A stretch of 9,745 nt of DNA from an uncultured Prevotella sp. (lineage in GTDB: Bacteria; Bacteroidota; Bacteroidia; Bacteroidales; Bacteroidaceae): contig CAMOQW010000066.1 of the NCBI GenBank assembly GCA_946623195.1, positions 1 to 9,745 on the forward strand. The letters run 5' to 3'. The notes beneath the pieces were generated by a model. It made no database searches, was not told where the DNA came from, and saw only the letters and a list, made by a program, of their open reading frames with translations. Positions 276 to 9,559 of this stretch are shown here, in pieces; position 1 is the first letter of the stretch, and the number at the start of each line of letters is the position of its first letter. The position numbers were made by a program, and so were the translations under genes.

Positions 276-845
276 ATGGAAAAAGGCAAGCTTATCATCT
301 TCTCAGCCCCCAGCGGCACGGGGAAGTCGACCATCATCAGCTGGCTGATGCAGTTTCCTGAACTGCATCTGGCCTTTTCTGTCTCATGCACGTCGCGAGC
401 CCCTCGCGGCACAGAGCAGGACGGCGTAGAATACTTCTTCATCACCCCCGAGGAGTTTCGCGAGCGAATAGCGCGTGACGAGTTCGTAGAATACGAGGAA
501 GTCTACGAAGGGCGCTTCTACGGCACGCTGAAGTCGCAGGTGGAAAAGCAATTGGAGGCCGGCCAGAATGTGGTCTTCGATGTGGACGTAAACGGGGGTA
601 TGCGCATCAAGCAGTACTATGGCAGCCGGGCATTGAGCATCTTCATCCAGCCCCCGTCGGTGGCTGAGCTGCGTCGGCGGCTGGAGAGCCGGGCCACGGA
701 TGCCCCCGAGGTTATCGACCAGCGCATAGCACGGGCCGAATATGAAATCTCGCAGGCGGGGAACTTTGACTGTACGGTTGTCAACGACCAACTGGAGAAG
801 GCTGAGGAGGACACGCTGCGGATCATCAAACAGTTCGTTGGATGA
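276..845 (+). CDS. gmk: Guanylate kinase
   Basis: Guanylate kinase phosphorylates GMP to GDP with ATP in the cytoplasm, in purine nucleotide supply. At 189 residues it has the usual family length. The P-loop APSGTGKS is at residues 11-18. The GMP-binding region follows, with SCTSRAPR (37-44), EY at 52-53 and the YGT motif at 82-84. The FDVDVNGG stretch (101-108) corresponds to the conserved D-D-QG segment after the GMP domain, and the LID arginines lie in ELRRRLESR (131-139). ATG 276 is 3 nt after the yicC stop, and the protein begins directly with the beta strand before the P-loop, as expected. Its stop overlaps the nadD start (ATGA at 842-845), so translation is probably coupled. Nothing appears missing or unusual. 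Confidence 0.97.
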   Translation: MEKGKLIIFSAPSGTGKSTIISWLMQFPELHLAFSVSCTSRAPRGTEQDGVEYFFITPEEFRERIARDEFVEYEEVYEGRFYGTLKSQVEKQLEAGQNVVFDVDVNGGMRIKQYYGSRALSIFIQPPSVAELRRRLESRATDAPEVIDQRIARAEYEISQAGNFDCTVVNDQLEKAEEDTLRIIKQFVG

Positions 846-1381
846 TTAGGACGGGAATCTTCGGCGGGTCGTTCAACCCCATCCACGTGGGCCACATCGC
901 GCTGGCCAAGGCGGTGCTGCAGCAATGCCCCTTGGACGAGGTGTGGCTGATGGTGTCGCCGCAGAATCCGCTGAAGCAAGAAGCCGACTTACTGGCTGAC
1001 GAGCTGCGGCTGCAGCTGTCGCAAAAAGCCCTGGAGGGTGTCGGTGGTGTCCGGGCCGTTGACTATGAGTTCCGCTTGCCCCGTCCGTCGTACACCTGGA
1101 ACACGTTGCAGCACTTGAGTCAGGACTATCCGGACCGTCAGTTCGTCTTGTTGATTGGCGGCGACAACTGGGCCCACTTCGACCGTTGGCGCCACTGGAA
1201 GGATATCCTGCGGAATTACGATGTCATCGTCTATCCCCGTGACAACTATCCGGGTACTATCAATATGCCGTTGCTTGATGTCTCAAGCACGGAAATCCGC
1301 CGGCGCGTCAGACGAGGCGAGAGCATAGCGGGAATGGTGCCCGAGAGCATCATCCCCGATGTGATGAGGTATTATCAATAA
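842..1381 (+). CDS. nadD: Nicotinate-nucleotide adenylyltransferase
   Basis: NadD transfers AMP from ATP to nicotinate mononucleotide, giving deamido-NAD in NAD biosynthesis. The 179-residue protein has the nucleotidyltransferase signature GIFGGSFNPIHVGH at residues 5-18, with the two active-site histidines H15 and H18. Further family landmarks are PSYTWNTL (82-89), GGDNW (106-110), and the C-terminal ATP-phosphate motif SSTEIRRR (148-155). The start is fixed by the 4-nt overlap with the gmk stop and by the signature beginning at residue 5. The gene ends 13 nt before the cytidylyltransferase fusion gene. It is therefore the last clearly housekeeping gene before the glycan-decoration genes on the same strand. 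Confidence 0.96.
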   Translation: MIRTGIFGGSFNPIHVGHIALAKAVLQQCPLDEVWLMVSPQNPLKQEADLLADELRLQLSQKALEGVGGVRAVDYEFRLPRPSYTWNTLQHLSQDYPDRQFVLLIGGDNWAHFDRWRHWKDILRNYDVIVYPRDNYPGTINMPLLDVSSTEIRRRVRRGESIAGMVPESIIPDVMRYYQ

Positions 1382-1394
1382 TAATTAGGAAGAT

Positions 1395-3209
1395 ATGCAG
1401 GCAATCATTCTGGCGGCTGGCATGGGCCGCAGACTTGGAGAGAAAACACGCGACAATACCAAGTGTATGGTGGAGGTCAACGGCGTCAAGTTGATAGACC
1501 GCCTATTAGGACAGCTGTCGGAACTTTCACTCCGCAGGGTCATCATCGTGGTGGGCTATCAGGGGCAGAAGCTGATAGACTACATCGGGCATCGCTACGA
1601 TGGCCGTCTTGTCATAGAATATACCGAGAACCCCGTCTACGACCGTACCAACAACATCTATTCGCTGTCGCTGGTGAAAGACAAGATGCAGGAAGACGAC
1701 ACCTTATTAATAGAGAGCGACCTCATTTTCAGCGACCGGCTGTTCCCGATGATAGTGGAAAACCCGTACCCCAACCTGGCGCTGGTGGCCAAGTATGAGA
1801 CTTGGATGGACGGTACGATGGTGCGCATAGACCAGGAGCAAAACATCGTCAACTTCGTGCCGAAGCAGGCTTTCAAGTATGAAGATGTTGACCAGTATTA
1901 CAAAACGGTAAACATCTACAAATTCTCCCGCGAGTTTAGCGAACAGAAGTATGTTCCTTTCCTGGAGGCCTATTGTCATGCCTTGGGCAACAATGAATAC
2001 TACGAACAGGTGTTGCGCGTCATCACGCTGCTCGACAATGCCGACCTGAAAGCACTTCCTATAGGCGACGAGAAATGGTATGAGATTGACGACATCCAAG
2101 ACCTGGATATTGCCGAGACCGTGTTTGCCGAAGGCGACGAGATGCTGCGCCGCTTCAACTACCGTTATGGCGGCCACTGGCGTTTCCCCAAGATGCTGGA
2201 CTACTGTTATCTGGTGAACCCCTATTTCCCCACTCCCCGCATGAAGGACGAGTTGCGCAGCAGCTTCGATACCCTGCTGACGGAGTACCCCTCGGGCATG
2301 TTCGTCAACTCGCTGTTGGCCGCTAAATATTTCGGTATCCGTCAGGAGTACACCGTGGTGGGCAATGGTGCTGCAGAGCTTATCAAGAGTCTGATGGAGC
2401 AGACTACGGGCAAGATAGGCGTGGTCTATCCAACCTTCGAGGAATATCCTCACCGGCTCAAGAAAGAGCAGATTGTGTCGTTTCAGCCTGCGGGCCAGAT
2501 GCTACGCTATACGGAGGATGACCTCATCAGCTTCTTTACGGATAAGAACATAGAGACCCTCCTGCTCATCAACCCCGACAACCCTTCCGGCAATTTCATC
2601 GGCATGGAGGGGCTGCAGCGGCTGCTGGACTGGAGTCGGGAACAGCACGTCAGGCTGATAGTCGACGAATCGTTTGTAGACTTCAGCGACGATTTCGAAC
2701 ATAACACCCTGCTCCGCAACGACACGCTGGCTGCCAATCCGCAACTGGTTGTCATGAAGAGCATCTCCAAATCGTATGGTGTGCCGGGCTTGCGCTTGGG
2801 TGTGATGGCCAGCGCCGATGCCGACCTTATCGCTTTCGTCAAAAGAGACATCTCCATCTGGAACATCAACTCGTTTGCCGAATTCTATATGCAGATTTTC
2901 GGGAAATACGAGAAAGACTATCGGGCTGCCTGCCACCGCTTCATCCGTGAGCGTAACCGCTTCGGACAGCTGCTGCAGCAGATTCCCTATCTGAAGGTGC
3001 TGCCTACGCAGGCCAACTATTTCTGCATTCAGCTGACTGACAAATACACGTCGGCAGAGCTGACCAAGTTACTGCTGGCACGCTATAACATGATGATCAA
3101 AGACTGCGACACGAAAAACGGACTGAAGGGACAGAACTTCATCCGTGTCTCCGTACGCAGCACAGAAGATAACAACCAATTTATTCAAGCCTTGAAGGAG
3201 CTGGCATGA
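1395..3209 (+). CDS. LicC-like cytidylyltransferase fused to CobD/HisC-like PLP enzyme
   Basis: This 604-residue protein has two enzyme domains. Residues 1 to about 245 are a sugar-phosphate/choline-phosphate nucleotidyltransferase of the LicC type: LAAGMGRRLG (6-15), TKCMVEVNG (22-30, K23), and a metal-binding D109 in IESDLIF. Residues about 265-604 are a fold-type I PLP enzyme: GNGAAELI (323-330), NPDNPSGN (393-400), DESFVDF (424-430), PLP lysine K459 in SISKSYG, phosphate-binding R467 in PGLRLG, and R584 in the C-terminal substrate loop. DESF-DF and PGLRLG resemble the threonine-phosphate decarboxylase CobD more than HisC, which usually has Tyr after DEA. Inferred role: the PLP domain makes a phosphorylated amino alcohol, and the N-terminal domain couples it to CMP. 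Transamination rather than decarboxylation remains possible. The stop overlaps the next start (ATGA, 3206-3209). Confidence 0.88.
   Translation: MQAIILAAGMGRRLGEKTRDNTKCMVEVNGVKLIDRLLGQLSELSLRRVIIVVGYQGQKLIDYIGHRYDGRLVIEYTENPVYDRTNNIYSLSLVKDKMQEDDTLLIESDLIFSDRLFPMIVENPYPNLALVAKYETWMDGTMVRIDQEQNIVNFVPKQAFKYEDVDQYYKTVNIYKFSREFSEQKYVPFLEAYCHALGNNEYYEQVLRVITLLDNADLKALPIGDEKWYEIDDIQDLDIAETVFAEGDEMLRRFNYRYGGHWRFPKMLDYCYLVNPYFPTPRMKDELRSSFDTLLTEYPSGMFVNSLLAAKYFGIRQEYTVVGNGAAELIKSLMEQTTGKIGVVYPTFEEYPHRLKKEQIVSFQPAGQMLRYTEDDLISFFTDKNIETLLLINPDNPSGNFIGMEGLQRLLDWSREQHVRLIVDESFVDFSDDFEHNTLLRNDTLAANPQLVVMKSISKSYGVPGLRLGVMASADADLIAFVKRDISIWNINSFAEFYMQIFGKYEKDYRAACHRFIRERNRFGQLLQQIPYLKVLPTQANYFCIQLTDKYTSAELTKLLLARYNMMIKDCDTKNGLKGQNFIRVSVRSTEDNNQFIQALKELA
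3195..3200 (+). promoter_or_regulatory. Shine-Dalgarno-like AAGGAG before the opine dehydrogenase-LicD gene
   Basis: AAGGAG lies 5 nt upstream of ATG 3206, inside the last codons of the upstream gene. With the ATGA overlap it marks 3206 as the start and suggests translational reinitiation or coupling. Such purine-rich sites are often absent in Bacteroidales, and the bases also encode Lys-Glu, so chance is possible. Confidence 0.4.
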
Positions 3210-4993
3210 AGAAACAAAACATCTGCATCTGTGGCGGCGGCAATCTGGGCCACGTGGTGACGGGATTCCTGGCTGCCCGCAACGACTGTGAGGTAAGCCT
3301 GCTGACGCGCCATCCTGAGCGTTGGCAGCACACTTTGGCCATCAGCACCCCCGACGGCACGGTGCTGGAAGGTACGGTCGGCAGGATATCCGGCAGTCCG
3401 GCCGATGTCATACCTTCGGCAGACATCGTGATAGTCTGTCTGCCGGGCTTCTCCATCCGCGAGGAGCTGCAGCACATCAGACCCTTCCTGAAGGCGGGCG
3501 CGGCTGTGGGAAGCATCGTCAGCAGCACCGGCTTCTTCTTCGACGCCTTTGATGTGTTGCCCGCGACGACGACCCTCTTCGGTTTCCAACGCGTTCCCTT
3601 CATCGCACGTACTACCGAATACGGACATGCTGCCGACTTGCTGGGCTACAAACCGGCTCTGAAGGTGGCCATTGAGCAGACTGCCGACAAGGAGACGCTA
3701 CGCTCAGCGATAGAACAACTCTTTGGAGTGCCTACAGAACTGATGCAGAGCTACTATGAGGTCAGCCTGACCAATAGCAACCCCTTGCTGCATCCCTCGC
3801 GACTTTATGCCCAATGGAAAGACTGGCACGAGGGGGTGGTCTATCCTGCACGGAGCCTGTTCTACGAGCAATGGAATGACGAGGCTTCACAGCTGCTGAT
3901 AGACATGGACCGCGAGTTCAACGCCCTGCTGGACGTGCTGCCCGTCAGGAAAGGCAGCATACCCACCATCCTGGACTATTACGAGAGTACTGATGCCGCC
4001 TCGCTGACCCGAAAGCTGCAGTCCATAGAGGCCTTCAAAGGCATACCGTCGCCCATGAAGGAGGTTGACGGCGGCTACGTGCCCGATTTCTCCAGCCGCT
4101 ATTTTTCCGAGGACTTTCCTTTCGGACTGCGCATTATCCAGCAGCAAGCCCGTCGCCACCACGTCAGCACGCCCGTCATTGACCGGGTGATGAACTGGGG
4201 GCTGCGTATGATCTACAACCCCGACGGCTCTCAGCTGCGCCGCCAGCAGTTGCGTATGCTTGACATCCTCAAGGAGGTGGACGCCATCTGCAAGCGCCAC
4301 GACATACCCTATTGGCTCAGCAGCGGCACGCTGATAGGTGCCCTGCGCCACGACGGTTTCATTCCCTGGGACGACGACCTGGACATCGAGATGATGCGGA
4401 AGGATTATGTGCGGCTGCTCAGCGTGCTGAAGCAGGAACTGCCCGACTGGCTGGCCCTGCAGGATGACGATACCGACCCCGGCTACTTCTTCTGTTATGC
4501 CAAGGTGCGCGACCGCCGGTCATGTCTGAACGAGGGCAACAACTACGACCGCCAATGGAAGGAGAAGGGTATCTATATCGACATCTTCCCGATGGAGCGC
4601 CATCCGATATGGCTGCACAAGCTGACAGAGAAAACCATCGGCCACATGTATAAGGTCTGGCGAACCAGTACGGACGATGCGAAGGCCATTCGCAGCGTGC
4701 GGCGCATCTTCAACATCAACACCCGCGTGCTCTTCCCCCTGCTGCGTGCTTTCTGCCGGTTGCTGCCCGGCAAGACCATCACCAGCGGCATGGGCATTCC
4801 CTACCACAACCCACGCTATGCGGCAGAAATATTCCCGCTGACCACCCACGTGTTCGAAGACCGCCAGTTTCCCGTTCCCGGCCATGCCGACCTGCTGCTG
4901 CGCCGTCTGTATGGCGACTATATGCAGCTGCCCGACCTGACGAAGCTGGCACCCCACGTGGCACATCTTGAATTCTATGACCAAAACCAGTAG
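3206..4993 (+). CDS. Opine dehydrogenase-like domain fused to LicD phosphotransferase
   Basis: This 595-residue protein has two parts. Residues 1 to about 135 form a Rossmann fold with GGGNLGH (10-16). Basic residues after the second strand (TRHPER, 34-39) suggest NADP(H). Residues about 180-335 match the octopine/nopaline dehydrogenase catalytic domain: SNPLLH (191-196) with H196, then SRYFSEDFPFGL (297-308) with R298 and D303. The Arg-to-Asp spacing of five is the same as in known opine dehydrogenases, so the domain looks catalytically complete. Opine dehydrogenases reductively join an amine to a 2-oxo acid. Residues about 341-595 are LicD: SSGTLIGALRHDGFIPWDDD (372-391) followed by LDI, the motif of phosphocholine-type transferases. 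LicD proteins transfer a phospho-substituent from a CDP carrier to a glycan. The pairing with the upstream cytidylyltransferase fits this. The identity of the substituent is inferred. Confidence 0.88.
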   Translation: MKKQNICICGGGNLGHVVTGFLAARNDCEVSLLTRHPERWQHTLAISTPDGTVLEGTVGRISGSPADVIPSADIVIVCLPGFSIREELQHIRPFLKAGAAVGSIVSSTGFFFDAFDVLPATTTLFGFQRVPFIARTTEYGHAADLLGYKPALKVAIEQTADKETLRSAIEQLFGVPTELMQSYYEVSLTNSNPLLHPSRLYAQWKDWHEGVVYPARSLFYEQWNDEASQLLIDMDREFNALLDVLPVRKGSIPTILDYYESTDAASLTRKLQSIEAFKGIPSPMKEVDGGYVPDFSSRYFSEDFPFGLRIIQQQARRHHVSTPVIDRVMNWGLRMIYNPDGSQLRRQQLRMLDILKEVDAICKRHDIPYWLSSGTLIGALRHDGFIPWDDDLDIEMMRKDYVRLLSVLKQELPDWLALQDDDTDPGYFFCYAKVRDRRSCLNEGNNYDRQWKEKGIYIDIFPMERHPIWLHKLTEKTIGHMYKVWRTSTDDAKAIRSVRRIFNINTRVLFPLLRAFCRLLPGKTITSGMGIPYHNPRYAAEIFPLTTHVFEDRQFPVPGHADLLLRRLYGDYMQLPDLTKLAPHVAHLEFYDQNQ

Positions 4994-4999
4994 TGTGAC

Positions 5000-6031
5000 A
5001 TGAAACATCCTGCAAACGTAGACGTGGCGGTACTGCTGCTGTTTTTCAACCGTCCAGAGTCCTTGAGCCAAGTGTTTGCCGAAATCAAGAAGGCACGCCC
5101 CTCCAGGCTCTTCCTCTATCAGGACGGACCCCGTGGCGAGCGCGACCTGGCGGGCATAGAGGCCTGCCGACAGGTGGTCAGCGACGAGCAGATAGACTGG
5201 GAGTGCGACGTCCGCCGCAACTATCAGACGGAGAATGCCGGCTGCGACCCTTCGAACTTCAACGCCCAGAAGTGGGCTTTCTCGCTGAGCGACAAGTGTG
5301 TGGTGTTCGAAGACGACAGCATCCCGTCGGTGACGTTCATCCGTTTCTGCAAGGAGATGCTCGACCGCTACGAGCACGACGAGCGCATCGTGATGATAGC
5401 GGGCTTCAACACAGACGAGGTGACCCCCGGCGTGCCCTACGACTACTTCTTCACCACCGTGTTCTCCATCTGGGGCTGGGCGTCGTGGCGTCGCGTCGTC
5501 GACCAATGGGACGAGCACTATACCTTTCTTGACGACGAATACAATATGCACCAGCTGGAGGCCCTGACTGCCGAGCGCCGCTACCGCACCACCATGTTGC
5601 GCATGACCCGCGACCACCGGGCCTTGGGCAAGGCTTACTACGAGAGCATCTTCTGGCCGTGCATGATGTTCAACCACGGACTGGCCATCATGCCTACCCG
5701 CAATATGATCAATAACCTGGGCAACATGGCGGGCGGCGACTCCACCCACTATGCCGGTTCGCTGCGCACCATGCCGCGCCGTCTGCGCCGTCTGTTTACG
5801 ATGCCGCGCTATGAACTGGACTTCCCGCTGAAGCATCCACGCTATGTCATCGAGAACGTAGACTATCTGCACAGCAACTACCGGGTGAATGCCTACGGCC
5901 ATCCTTGGCGTAAGATAGGCTATTCGCTGGAGGAACTGTGGCTGAACGTGCGCTACGGCAACTTCGCCTTCATCTGGAAGTCGGTGAAGAACCGCGTGGT
6001 GAAGCTGCTGGGCATGAAGAAATATCGATAG
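5000..6031 (+). CDS. GT-A glycosyltransferase, HlpA-like
   Basis: This 343-residue protein is a predicted glycosyltransferase. It opens with a beta strand and loop typical of nucleotide-sugar binding (VAVLLLFFNRPESL, 9-22). A second strand ends in LFLYQDGPRGE (37-47). QTENAGCDPSNF (76-87) precedes a metal-binding acidic motif, CVVFEDDSIPS (100-110), where E104-D105-D106 take the DxD role. IWGWASWRR (157-165) is typical of proteins annotated as HlpA-like or GNT-I-like transferases in Bacteroidetes. There is no signal peptide or strong membrane segment, so it should act at the cytoplasmic face. It begins 6 nt after the LicD gene and may build the acceptor sugar that LicD decorates. Donor and linkage cannot be read. 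Its stop is 3 nt from the end of the convergent GT2 gene. Confidence 0.8.
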   Translation: MKHPANVDVAVLLLFFNRPESLSQVFAEIKKARPSRLFLYQDGPRGERDLAGIEACRQVVSDEQIDWECDVRRNYQTENAGCDPSNFNAQKWAFSLSDKCVVFEDDSIPSVTFIRFCKEMLDRYEHDERIVMIAGFNTDEVTPGVPYDYFFTTVFSIWGWASWRRVVDQWDEHYTFLDDEYNMHQLEALTAERRYRTTMLRMTRDHRALGKAYYESIFWPCMMFNHGLAIMPTRNMINNLGNMAGGDSTHYAGSLRTMPRRLRRLFTMPRYELDFPLKHPRYVIENVDYLHSNYRVNAYGHPWRKIGYSLEELWLNVRYGNFAFIWKSVKNRVVKLLGMKKYR

Positions 6032-6034
6032 CCG

Positions 6035-6877
6035 TCAGGCGTTGCTTTCCCTGACCCGTTGGCGAATGCGGTCACGCTCGTCGGCATACAGCTGATAGAG
6101 CAGACGCCCGTTGCGCTCGCTCTGTTCCTGGGTGAAGGCATTGTTCCACAACCGCATGCCGCCGGCTGTCAGCGAACGGAATCCGGCGTCGTACCACCCC
6201 ACCTGCAGGCCGCAGAGCCATGCGCGGGCACACAGCTCATAGTCGTCGAACTGGAACGGGGCGAAGCGGAAGTCGATGTGGTGCAGGTGCTGCATGAACA
6301 GCTGGCGGTTGATCCACATCGGGGCACGGTTGACGGAGGTGACAAAACAGAAGTCGCCCGTGGCCTGCGAGGCTCCGCCGTGGGCCCGCTTCCGGTCGTC
6401 TTCGAAGGTGATGTCCAGTCCGCCCTTTCCACCGAGGATGACCATCTTCGGATGCTGCTCAAACAGTCGTACGGCCTGCTCCACCCATCCCGTGCCGTCG
6501 AAGTCGTCGTCGTCCTGCATCAGGGCAATGTAGCGGCCGTTGGCCAGTCGGATGGCCTTGTCGTAGGTGACATTCTCAAACAGGTCGTTGGCACGCAGCA
6601 GAAACTCGTTGGCACCCGTCAGGGCTGCTGCCAGACGGCGGGTGTGCTCTTCCTTCGAACCGTCGTCGATGACGATAATCTCGGCATCCACATACTGCCG
6701 CAGCTTGGGCAGCACGTGACACACCTGCAGACTCTTGTCGTGCGACTGGAGGACGAACGTGACTGTCGGCTCCTTTCTGTATCCCTTGGCCACCCACGAA
6801 TCGTGGCTCTTCTTTTGCTGGGCTGTGCCCGTGCGCTTCTGCAGGGCCAGTTTGATTTTCTCTATGAGCAGTTTCAT
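6035..6877 (-). CDS. Family 2 glycosyltransferase
   Basis: This is a GT2-type (GT-A fold) glycosyltransferase of 280 residues, counted from the ATG at 6877. VTFVLQSHDK (39-48) is the first strand, VIDDGS (69-74) the UDP-sugar-binding motif, and ALMQDDDDF (118-126) the metal-binding acidic cluster. FDDYELCARAWL (210-221) is in the position of the catalytic-base ED motif. The N terminus (residues 1-15) is a basic amphipathic helix that could touch the membrane. A longer frame starts at 6925, but the promoter at 6895-6926 lies inside those 16 extra codons, so 6877 is preferred. It sits 61 nt after the flippase gene on the same strand with its own promoter. Donor and acceptor are unknown. The gene probably works on the same surface glycan as its neighbours. 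Confidence 0.85.
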   Translation of the reverse strand: MKLLIEKIKLALQKRTGTAQQKKSHDSWVAKGYRKEPTVTFVLQSHDKSLQVCHVLPKLRQYVDAEIIVIDDGSKEEHTRRLAAALTGANEFLLRANDLFENVTYDKAIRLANGRYIALMQDDDDFDGTGWVEQAVRLFEQHPKMVILGGKGGLDITFEDDRKRAHGGASQATGDFCFVTSVNRAPMWINRQLFMQHLHHIDFRFAPFQFDDYELCARAWLCGLQVGWYDAGFRSLTAGGMRLWNNAFTQEQSERNGRLLYQLYADERDRIRQRVRESNA

Positions 6878-6894
6878 CTTTTTCTTAATTTTCT

Positions 6895-6926
6895 GCAAAA
6901 ATACACATAAAAGTGCTAATATCAAA
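6895..6926 (-). promoter_or_regulatory. Bacteroidetes-type promoter of the GT2 gene
   Basis: On the minus strand, TTTG (6923-6926) is followed after 19 nt by TATTTTTGC (6895-6903). This matches the Bacteroides -33/-7 consensus (TTTG, about 19-21 nt, TAnnTTTG) in both boxes and in spacing. Transcription should start near 6892, leaving a leader of about 15 nt before ATG 6877. Confidence 0.75.
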
Positions 6927-6938
6927 ATTATTCTTAGT

Positions 6939-8381
6939 TCAACGGACTAATCTGTGCATCAGAAAAGAGGTGCATTCTTCAAATATCTTGACCCGCGCCA
7001 GCTTCATCACGCCGATGTAGAGCGCGGCGACGATGACGATGCGCAGGACTATCTGCACAATGACGGAGCCGATGTTGCGCGTGAGAAACCAGGCAATCAG
7101 GATGCTGGCCAGTGCCGACAGCAGGAAGGGCACCACGTCCTTCAGCATGTCGCGGAAGCGCAGGCCCATCTCCCGGCGGGCCAGATATTGCCATACGCCC
7201 GTCCAGAGGATGAGCATAGCGGCATAGGCCGTCACCATGGTCTGGATGCCCCACGTGCTGAAGATGACGATGACGCTGACCTGCAGCACAATCTGCGCCA
7301 CAGTACACCATAGGTAGTAATCGGACCGGCCGTGGCTGATGAACAGGTTCTGGTAGAGCGTATGGATGGGCAGGAAAGCCCCGCTGACGGCCAGCAGTCG
7401 CAGCAGGTGGACGCTGTCGGTCCATTTGTCGCCCATCAGCACGATGATGAAGTCGGCCACGAGGGCCAGTCCCAGCATGGTGGGCATCGAGAGGAATGCC
7501 GTGAATCGCAGCATCTTGCGGAACACGTTCAGCTGGCGCCCCTCTTCATCGTTGATGCTGGCCAGCACGGGTTGCGCCACCTGGCTGATGGTGCCCGAAA
7601 TGAGCGAGTGGCCCATCAGGTTCCACTTGGCGGCCTGCGTGTAGCTGCCCACGGCCCCTGCTGTGAACAAACGGCCGAAGATAAACGATAGCACATTGTT
7701 GTTCACCTGATTGATGATGTTGGTAATTAGTATCTTGCTGCTGAATCCGAACATCTCGCGGATGGGCCTCATGTCGATGTGCAGCGACGGCAGCCAGCGG
7801 ACATAGTACAGACGGCAGCTGTCAACCACGCACATGTAGGCAAACTGCTGCCAGGCCAGGCTCCAGTAGCTGTATCCGCAGAGCGCCAGGGTGATGCCCA
7901 CGGTGCCGCTGACGGTCATGGCCAGGGTATTCATGACGGCCTTTTCGCGGTTCATCATGTTGCGGAACATGTAGGCCGAGTGTGCCGTGCCGATGCCCGC
8001 CAGCACGAACGAGGCGAACACCAGCCTGGAGAGGCTGACCAGCTCCGGCTGGTGGAAGTAGTCGGCAATGAGCGGGGCCGCGAAGTAGAGCACGACGTAG
8101 AGGCTTAGCGACATGCACGTGCTGAACCAGAACACGGCATTGTATTCATGGTGAGTGGCCTGCTTCCGGTTGGTGAGGGCTGCCGTGAATCCGCTCTCCT
8201 GCAGCGAGCCGGCAATAGCCGAGAAGATGGCCAGCATACCCATCAGTCCGTATTCCGCTGGCGACAGCAGGCGTGCCAGCACGATGCCCAGCAGGGCACT
8301 CAGCAGCTGGGTGGCCATGTTGTTGGCAGCCCCCCAGAGCAGTCCCTTCGCGGTCTTTTCCTTCAGCGTCTTCTCACCCAT
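6939..8381 (-). CDS. Wzx-like polysaccharide flippase (MOP superfamily)
   Basis: This 480-residue polytopic membrane protein belongs to the polysaccharide-transporter branch of the MOP superfamily (Wzx, WzxC and TuaB relatives). It would flip lipid-linked saccharide across the inner membrane. The N terminus has the typical layout: a short basic stretch (TLKEKTAKGLLWGA), then a hydrophobic helix, then VLARLLSPAEYGLMGM, the conserved loop after the first membrane segment. Hydrophobic segments recur to the C terminus, in keeping with 12-14 helices. SYTQAAKWNLMG lies mid-protein, where related proteins carry a conserved Y-A/Q-R-A loop. ATG 8379-8381 follows a -7 box closely and has no Shine-Dalgarno sequence. 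No polymerase (Wzy) or initiating transferase is visible in the window, so partners must be encoded elsewhere. Confidence 0.88.
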   Translation of the reverse strand: MGEKTLKEKTAKGLLWGAANNMATQLLSALLGIVLARLLSPAEYGLMGMLAIFSAIAGSLQESGFTAALTNRKQATHHEYNAVFWFSTCMSLSLYVVLYFAAPLIADYFHQPELVSLSRLVFASFVLAGIGTAHSAYMFRNMMNREKAVMNTLAMTVSGTVGITLALCGYSYWSLAWQQFAYMCVVDSCRLYYVRWLPSLHIDMRPIREMFGFSSKILITNIINQVNNNVLSFIFGRLFTAGAVGSYTQAAKWNLMGHSLISGTISQVAQPVLASINDEEGRQLNVFRKMLRFTAFLSMPTMLGLALVADFIIVLMGDKWTDSVHLLRLLAVSGAFLPIHTLYQNLFISHGRSDYYLWCTVAQIVLQVSVIVIFSTWGIQTMVTAYAAMLILWTGVWQYLARREMGLRFRDMLKDVVPFLLSALASILIAWFLTRNIGSVIVQIVLRIVIVAALYIGVMKLARVKIFEECTSFLMHRLVR

Positions 8382-8449: not shown

Positions 8450-8464
8450 AGCAAATTATTGTCT

Positions 8465-9559
8465 ATGGAAACAAATATACCCCCCGTCAAGCGGAAACCG
8501 CGTCTGGAATGGCTCGATGCCCTCAGGGGTTTCACGATGATCATGGTTGTGGCCTATCACGTCTGTCAGCAGGGCTTCCTGCTGGATGCCAAGGTGTCGG
8601 CCTCCATGCCCTTCCTGGTGCTGTTCCGTATGCCGCTGTTCTTCTTTGTCAGCGGTTTCCTGGCTTACAAGGCCTCCGTGACGTGGACCCTCCCCACGCT
8701 GATGCAGCTGGTGGGCAAGAAGTTGCGCGTGCAGCTGATACCCACCGCCGTGTTCTTCTTCTTTGCCTGTGCCGTACTGTATCCGAAGTTCCTGCCGGCC
8801 GTGGAGCATAACTTCCTGTCGCCCACCAAGGGCGGCTACTGGTTTACCATCGCCCTGCTCTACATGTTCATCATCTATTACCTGTTTGCCTATCTGGAGA
8901 GCAAGCTCCGGTGGCGGTCATGGATACCGATAGTCTTGCTGTTTGTGGTTTCGCTGGTGCTCTACGAGACCTGCTATCTGCCCAAGTATTTCTGGTGGGC
9001 CTTCGGTCACAAGGGTGTGAAGCCTACGTTGTGGCTCGACCAGACGAGCATCATCCAGACGATGCAGTATCTGCCGTTCTTCCTCTATGGCAACATCGTG
9101 AGGCGCTACTGGCAGCAGTCGCAGCGCGTGATGGACTCGCGGTGGTTCTATCCGCTGCTGATTGTCGTGGTCATCTTCTGTACGCTCGACGTGCTGAAGT
9201 GGCACACGCTGCGCTTCCAGTGGACCAATCTGCCCCTGACGCTGGCCAAGTTTATCCTGCTGACCATTGTGTTCATGTATTTCCGCAACTACCACCAGTA
9301 TTTCACCAAGCTGACCTGGATAGGGCGCAGCCTGCAGTACATCGGGCGGCGGACGCTGGACATCTACCTGATTCACTTCCTCTTCATGCCCAACCTGCCG
9401 GGCGTGGGCACCTTCCTGACCAGCAACCGCCACAACTTCATTGTCGACACCACGCTGTCGGTGCTGATAGGCCTGGTCATCATCGGCTTCTGCATCATCA
9501 CGTCCAACATCCTGCGTGTCAGTCCGCTGTTCAAGAAGTACCTGTTTGGCAGGTCGTAA
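8465..9559 (+). CDS. Membrane acyltransferase, acyltransferase-3 (OafA/NodX-like) family
   Basis: This is an integral-membrane acyltransferase of 364 residues with about ten hydrophobic segments, the usual size for the acyltransferase-3 family. Such proteins O-acylate (often O-acetylate) surface sugars. The first segment carries the family's R-x10-H motif, with R21 in DALRGF and H32 in VAYHV. FRMPLFFFVSGFLAYK is the typical second segment, and the family's RRTLDIYLIH stretch (a TL-IYLIH pattern) lies near the C terminus. The frame can be extended to TTG 8459, but ATG 8465 is preferred because it begins METN, is the first ATG and fits the -7 box at 8441-8449. It may acylate the glycan exported by the divergent flippase. 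The acyl group cannot be read from the sequence. Confidence 0.9.
   Translation: METNIPPVKRKPRLEWLDALRGFTMIMVVAYHVCQQGFLLDAKVSASMPFLVLFRMPLFFFVSGFLAYKASVTWTLPTLMQLVGKKLRVQLIPTAVFFFFACAVLYPKFLPAVEHNFLSPTKGGYWFTIALLYMFIIYYLFAYLESKLRWRSWIPIVLLFVVSLVLYETCYLPKYFWWAFGHKGVKPTLWLDQTSIIQTMQYLPFFLYGNIVRRYWQQSQRVMDSRWFYPLLIVVVIFCTLDVLKWHTLRFQWTNLPLTLAKFILLTIVFMYFRNYHQYFTKLTWIGRSLQYIGRRTLDIYLIHFLFMPNLPGVGTFLTSNRHNFIVDTTLSVLIGLVIIGFCIITSNILRVSPLFKKYLFGRS

Follow-up and report, generated by a model that had tools for sequence, protein, structure and literature searches.

A predicted opine dehydrogenase-LicD fusion and a candidate modular pathway for N-carboxyalkyl phospho-substituents on Prevotellaceae surface glycans

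Decoration of glycans with phospho-groups from cytidine diphosphate (CDP) donors is already known. The LicC/LicD pair of the lic1 system proceeds by cytidine triphosphate (CTP) activation followed by transfer of phosphocholine by LicD, whose family is best known for that substrate; the CDP-OH_P_transf and Glyphos_transf families are likewise known for CDP-activated donors. Here we describe a stretch of 9,745 nucleotides from an uncultured Prevotella sp. (contig CAMOQW010000066.1 of assembly GCA_946623195.1, hereafter the window) in which an opine dehydrogenase (ODH) is fused to LicD, and it is the ODH step that is the added part. Judging from comparisons of sequence and gene order, we put at roughly 0.7 the probability that the genes of the window serve to build an N-carboxyalkyl ("opine") phospho-substituent on a surface glycan. 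One such substituent, N-[(R)-1-carboxyethyl]ethanolamine phosphate, appears by name in a figure legend and the glossary of PMC9630907 as part of the O-polysaccharide of Proteus mirabilis, and the O-antigens of Providencia bear the opine-type substituents alanopine and N-epsilon-carboxyethyl-lysine (PMC10609480). (Genes for the Proteus substituent were not found in the passages of PMC9630907 consulted.)

The fused gene occupies positions 3206-4993 of the forward strand as a single open reading frame (ORF) of 595 amino acids, in which residues 1-335 (3206..4210) form the ODH domain and residues ~343-595 (4232..4993) form a LicD phosphotransferase domain. In Pfam scans of the fusion, the Octopine_DH alpha-helical domain PF02317 scored 104.9 bits against a curated cut-off of 30, and the LicD domain PF04991 scored 138.1 bits against a cut-off of 22.6. 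Residues H196, D303 and R298 of the ODH domain, which align with the His-Asp dyad and Arg324 of octopine dehydrogenase, are kept in 113/113 aligned ODH rows; we take the Asp of that dyad to be Asp329. The roles of the catalytic His and Arg324 in octopine dehydrogenase are described in PMC2924402. In the LicD domain, the W and Asp residues of the W-D-D-D-x-D motif (WDDDLDI at residues 388-394) are invariant in all 38 alignment rows that have letters there. The predicted model contains the two-domain ODH fold, with matches to 3iqd, 3c7d and 1bg6 by Foldseek and by VIA-align, the latter covering mainly residues 1-383. Both domains occur in one chain in 81 of the 120 listed homologues of the fusion, which argues that the fusion is no assembly accident, and in a quick tree of 120 ODH rows the fused and separate forms are intermixed within clades. 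An earlier, sequence-only reading of this DNA had proposed a complete ODH domain joined in one chain to an intact LicD domain; these features are borne out, the same fusion recurs elsewhere, and the Proteus substituent which that reading brought up is the one named above.

The pocket of the window ODH would appear to fit an anionic amine substrate. Octopine dehydrogenase binds the guanidinium group through the side chains of Glu142 and Trp278 and the backbone of Met206 (PMC2924402). In the alignment, Q128 and T254 of the window ODH stand at E142 and W278, so that the Glu142/Trp278 guanidinium ligands of the arginine-using octopine dehydrogenase are absent from it. Q128 is found in 111/113 rows, and the adjoining R129 is identical in 113/113; loss of the acidic ligand together with an invariant arginine suits an anionic amine.

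Directly upstream of the fusion lies a gene (1395..3209, forward strand), here called NTP-CobD, whose stop codon shares an ATGA overlap with the start of the fusion and whose product is predicted to serve both amine-donor synthesis and CTP activation. It joins a LicC/PntC-like nucleotidyltransferase (NTP) domain (residues ~1-235; PF12804/PF00483) to a CobD-like pyridoxal phosphate (PLP) enzyme of class I/II (residues ~265-604; PF00155). The NTP part matches two PDB entries, 1jyk (phosphocholine cytidylyltransferase) and 6pd1 (nucleotidyltransferase/class V aminotransferase). The PLP part, in which Pfam found class I/II PF00155 and no class V aminotransferase domain of the PntC-AEPT type, matches 6oux and 1lc5, which are of the threonine-phosphate decarboxylase type, and the sequence SISKSYG at position 456 of NTP-CobD is presumably the PLP-lysine motif. 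The best NCBIfam match of the PLP part is TIGR01140 (CobD), at 168.1 bits against a cut-off of 290.55, and the domain is thus a relative of CobD and not an equivalog. We assume that Cj1436 and Cj1437 of Campylobacter jejuni are related to it. Cj1436 converts serine phosphate to ethanolamine phosphate, and Cj1437 gives serinol phosphate (PMC12409886). We regard NTP-CobD as a plausible route to CDP-ethanolamine.

In the pathway that we envisage, the CobD-like domain would most likely convert serine phosphate to ethanolamine phosphate, and the NTP domain, going by its family, would activate the amino-alcohol phosphate as a CDP-ester. The ODH domain would condense the amine of the phosphate or of its CDP-ester with a 2-oxo acid (perhaps pyruvate, our first guess), the imine being reduced with NAD(P)H, and LicD would take the CDP-bound phospho group and place it on a hydroxyl of the growing glycan. 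That is, the fused enzyme probably turns an ethanolamine-phosphate tag into an opine tag and attaches the latter to a surface sugar. Amines of the serinol or aminopropanol type are possible, and relatives of the system would run the same ODH step on 2-aminoethylphosphonate (AEP).

The pairing of donor gene and ODH is conserved. We retained 80 related loci from 426 relatives found in genome contigs, measuring gene distances as the gaps between tblastn matches. NTP-CobD lies no more than 164 bp from ODH in 78 of the 80 loci, and on the same strand in 76. This arrangement bears on the idea that ODH acts after transfer, on glycan-bound phosphoethanolamine and not on a free or CDP-linked amine. Fusion to a transferase would place ODH at the last step, and sequence cannot give the order; but ODH adjoins the donor gene in 78/80 loci and remains beside it in loci where another transferase family follows, and we consider action after transfer very improbable. 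In the genomes of the two loci with no NTP-CobD nearby (L022 and L079, genomes G937 and G938), matches to NTP-CobD are weak, the best having E values of 1e-18 and 2e-23 at 29% identity, with short ones at 33% or less. Each of these genomes holds a phosphoenolpyruvate (PEP) mutase 79-80% identical to that of locus L173 (see below), and so they too show a sign of a phosphonate donor. As for LicD, it is fused to ODH in 15 loci, has its own ORF no more than 500 bp away in 40, and lies at 0.5-5 kb in 10; fused cases included, it is within 500 bp of ODH in 55/80.

Two genomes with ODH and no NTP-CobD, G571 and G639, point to a second donor. Here ODH comes directly after genes for an NTP, a PEP mutase, a thiamine pyrophosphate-dependent decarboxylase and a class V transaminase, forming an AEP operon that ends in ODH (L172:3307-8539 and L173:3302-8598, with Pfam assignments made on L173). 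The PEP mutase, decarboxylase and transaminase of L172 match those of L173 at 86-92% by tblastn, the L172 transaminase being spread over two overlapping ORFs, and the series of these three enzymes is the AEP route outlined in PMC6697681. In the quick tree the ODHs of G571 and G639 pair with a Shimodaira-Hasegawa-like approximate likelihood ratio test (SH-aLRT) value of 99, and the ODH of G456, whose neighbour is a cytidylyltransferase with 65% identity to its L173 counterpart, groups with them at 94. In G613 (L236:4729-10534), NTP-CobD, ODH and a PEP-mutase-like gene stand in series, and another ORF of 494 aa alongside is in part similar to PEP mutase. Because the common denominator of these donors is 2-aminoethyl phosphate or phosphonate, the simplest view is that ODH uses this amine as its substrate. 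The same module could also operate on another amine, with the CobD-like domain making serinol phosphate as a transaminase, or 1-aminopropan-2-ol phosphate by decarboxylating threonine phosphate, and the opine being built thereon. The domain is only distantly CobD, and the C. jejuni pair yields both ethanolamine phosphate and serinol phosphate (PMC12409886). However, the AEP operon beside ODH in two genomes ties that ODH clade to a two-carbon aminoethyl skeleton, and a PEP mutase is present in 4/4 examined ODH genomes that lack NTP-CobD, making a different amine unlikely.

Beyond ODH, the transferase changes, although LicD is the most usual one there. In L173, a Glyphos_transf gene comes directly after ODH, with LicD ~3.7 kb further on. 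In L214:4761-8397, from a genome of the order draw described below, NTP-CobD, an ODH (38% identical) and a CDP-OH_P_transf gene stand in series, and there is no LicD match in the 16-kb stretch. That the transferase family varies behind a constant ODH points to an ODH that tailors the donor rather than the acceptor. (At L174:9681-12041, a divergent ODH with 33% identity comes after NTP-CobD and ahead of an alanine dehydrogenase/PNT-domain protein, which may be yet another variant.)

A survey of the family indicates that the reductase, too, is exchanged. We used an even draw of 251 genomes, among them the centre genome, which was chosen because it is ODH-positive, with cut-offs of E <= 1e-30 for ODH, E <= 1e-50 for NTP-CobD, and E <= 1e-20 for homologues of the PF02423 protein of L163 and for PEP mutase (PF13714). 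ODH was found in 38 genomes, NTP-CobD in 58, the L163-type PF02423 protein in 18 and PEP mutase in 41. ODH was accompanied by NTP-CobD in 36/38 genomes (in 35 the two share a contig, in 32 they lie within 200 bp, and in G618 they are on two contigs). None of the 18 PF02423 genomes contained ODH (0/18). NTP-CobD was present in 15 of them, within 200 bp in 10 of these, and the other three have a PEP mutase with 79-80% identity to the L173 enzyme, adjacent in one, G507, where the pair lies close to the end of a contig. Of the 22 NTP-CobD genomes without ODH, 15 carry the PF02423 gene and 7 carry neither reductase. The PF02423 reductase directly adjoins NTP-CobD at L163:8926-9870 and L165:1467-2408, on which the Pfam assignment (ornithine cyclodeaminase/mu-crystallin) was run, and at L150, L152, L155, L156, L159, L160, L166 and L167. 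Judged by gene order, a non-homologous PF02423 reductase occupies the position that ODH holds elsewhere; a scan of 8 window proteins gave no PF02423 match. (At L151:9034-10026 and L153:6089-7081, in genomes with neither reductase, an ORF that looks epimerase-like by eye adjoins NTP-CobD.) Taurine, the sulfonate analogue of AEP, yields the opine tauropine with pyruvate. PF02423 includes the tauropine dehydrogenases of sponges (PMC4575208, PMC4113996).

All 56 reductase genomes of the draw have a match to NTP-CobD or PF13714, compared to 89/251 genomes overall (Fisher p 6e-33, a value that takes no account of phylogeny and is to that extent a point against us). Because PF13714 also matches 6/14 control genomes, including E. 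coli and B. subtilis, in which phosphonate synthesis need not follow, some of the genomes behind the counts of 41 and 89 may lack a phosphonate route; the genes of the five reductase genomes that depend on PF13714 are at least 79% identical to the L173 PEP mutase. These data bear on whether ODH instead makes a free or sugar-linked amino-acid opine, of the alanopine or N-carboxyethyl-lysine type, that some other enzyme attaches, LicD being incidental. Substituents of that type are known on Providencia O-antigens (PMC10609480), and LicD is common near other genes of these loci, but the fusion to LicD, the near-constant adjacency of NTP-CobD, the AEP-operon context and the presence of an NTP-CobD or PEP-mutase-family gene in 56/56 reductase genomes leave little chance for an amino-acid opine.

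Several further observations weigh against an N-carboxyalkyl phospho-substituent. The CobD-like domain does not reach the CobD equivalog cut-off and might instead produce serinol phosphate as a transaminase, and the model of the fusion has a predicted template modelling score (pTM) of 0.62, with uncertain interdomain geometry. No LicD lies within 5 kb of ODH in 15/80 loci, some of whose contigs end near ODH. Among loci that contain the gene in question, LicD is also found within 500 bp of Acyl_transf_3 in 15/26, of the glycosyltransferase GTd in 11/36 and of the Wzx flippase in 14/55; since it is frequent throughout these loci, its closeness alone is weak evidence, and fusion to LicD is the better evidence. 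This control and the PEP mutases of the L022 and L079 genomes pull in opposite ways. In 5 of 15 genomes the PF02423 gene and NTP-CobD are on different contigs. Finally, 7/58 NTP-CobD genomes have neither reductase, and these may make an unmodified tag; most PEP-mutase genomes likewise have none.

With these points weighed, the proposal of the sequence-only reading that the fusion makes and attaches an N-carboxyalkyl phospho-substituent is supported by comparative genomics, in that neighbouring genes would supply an aminoethyl-phosph(on)ate amine and cytidylyltransferase-like activation, and in other genomes a PF02423 reductase stands in the slot of ODH. It can also be widened: ODH-LicD has the look of a compact version of a system made of modules, whose opine step relatives seem to assemble from interchangeable parts. 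We give about even odds to a Bacteroidales phospho-opine glycan decoration of which ODH-LicD, extended by a glycosyltransferase in some relatives, is the most compact form. It would draw on two amine donors (ethanolamine phosphate via NTP-CobD, and AEP via Ppm-Ppd-AEPT-NTP), two mutually exclusive imine reductases (PF02317 ODH and the unrelated PF02423) and up to three transferase families (LicD, CDP-OH_P_transf and Glyphos_transf), and its products would be N-carboxyalkyl phosphodiester and N-carboxyalkyl phosphonate substituents.

The remaining genes of the window are those of a polysaccharide locus. Six bases separate the stop codon of LicD from GTd (5000..6031, forward strand), which has no Pfam match; its model (predicted local distance difference test, pLDDT, 89.9) matches 5ggf and 1fo8 in Foldseek with E values of 2-3e-11 and TM-scores by query length of 0.45-0.48, making it likely, as far as the model goes, that GTd is a GT-A glycosyltransferase of the GnT-I/POMGNT1 type. 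In four listed homologues (P0072, P0073, P0074 and P0076) ODH, LicD and GTd form one chain. There follow a GT2 glycosyltransferase of the same locus (6035..6925, reverse strand; PF00535), a Wzx-type flippase (Polysacc_synt_3; 6939..8381, reverse strand; PF13440, 247 bits) and a membrane acyltransferase (Acyl_transf_3; 8459..9559, forward strand; PF01757). GTd and the flippase would serve the glycan that receives the opine tag. Were ODH and LicD merely co-transcribed members of two separate pathways, LicD would transfer phosphocholine, the substrate for which its family is best known. Against this stand the lack of any choline-kinase or choline-uptake family among the 8 window proteins scanned by Pfam, the pattern of reductase replacement and the ODH-LicD-GTd triple fusion, and we find two separate pathways scarcely credible. 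(At window positions 276-1381, a guanylate kinase gene and a CTP_transf_like gene, the latter presumably NadD-like, directly precede the NTP-CobD/ODH-LicD module; both are present, on either strand, in 23/80 related loci.)

An even draw of 395 genomes from the phylum yielded ODH (E <= 1e-20) in a single genome (1/395), the centre genome itself, which indicates that the system is concentrated near Prevotellaceae. With the L173 ODH as query, 12/295 genomes of an order draw were positive, the centre included, six at only 29-31% identity; two of those six, L218 and L219, have neither NTP-CobD nor LicD matches, and L213 (ODH at 43%) and L216 have ODH without NTP-CobD within the available stretch. 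A scan of viral contigs found no relative. ODH matches occurred on 46 plasmid records, 40 of which were listed, and three cases were checked. The plasmid ODHs of Burkholderia and Paraburkholderia were rejected as relatives, their neighbours being genes for tyrosinase, methyltransferase and phytanoyl-CoA dioxygenase. Also rejected was the match in Proteus mirabilis H63 (L081, a record without annotation), in which ODH follows a gene whose ORF looks cysteine-synthase-like by eye; the 25-kb stretch gave no match to LicD or NTP-CobD. As no plasmid ODH that was checked supports a glycan role, these comparisons do not tie the Proteus substituent to genes.

If our reading is correct, N-carboxyalkyl phosphonates are a predicted class of substituent, the window provides candidate genes for the known N-(1-carboxyethyl)ethanolamine phosphate, for which the articles that could be searched gave us no genes, and opine dehydrogenases gain a role in the surface-glycan decoration of Prevotellaceae, many of them from rumen samples, judging by their record titles. 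A carboxylate added to a phosphoethanolamine tag would be expected to change the charge of the surface and the way it is recognized. With two unrelated families of reductase standing in for each other, the prediction can be put to a direct test on purified enzymes. In the accessible parts of the searchable (non-subscription) literature we found no report linking an opine dehydrogenase with LicD or with a polysaccharide locus, and our literature searches, within the same kind of limit, found none of N-carboxyalkyl phosphonate substituents.

Among described systems, the octopine dehydrogenase of Pecten maximus (3c7a/3iqd, PF02317) resembles the window ODH in fold, Rossmann motif, His-Asp dyad and Arg, and differs from it at Q128/T254 (E142/W278 in octopine dehydrogenase), in the fusion to LicD and in the setting of a polysaccharide locus. 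The lic1 system shares CTP activation and subsequent transfer by LicD, to which the window adds ODH without a choline kinase or transporter among the proteins scanned. The Pnt pathway has PntC, which we take to be fused to a transaminase (cf. PDB 6pd1). Here too a cytidylyltransferase is combined with a PLP enzyme that makes the aminoethyl donor, and transferases resembling LicD lie nearby (Rice et al. 2019, PMC6697681), whereas the PLP domain of the window is of class I/II and CobD-like, not class V; the main text of that article makes no mention of a dehydrogenase or an opine. The sponge tauropine dehydrogenases form an opine from a 2-aminoethyl acid and belong to PF02423, a family different from that of the window ODH and yet the one that replaces ODH in the same gene slot. 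Finally, if pyruvate is used, the predicted product of the window would be the N-[(R)-1-carboxyethyl]ethanolamine phosphate of P. mirabilis (PMC9630907).

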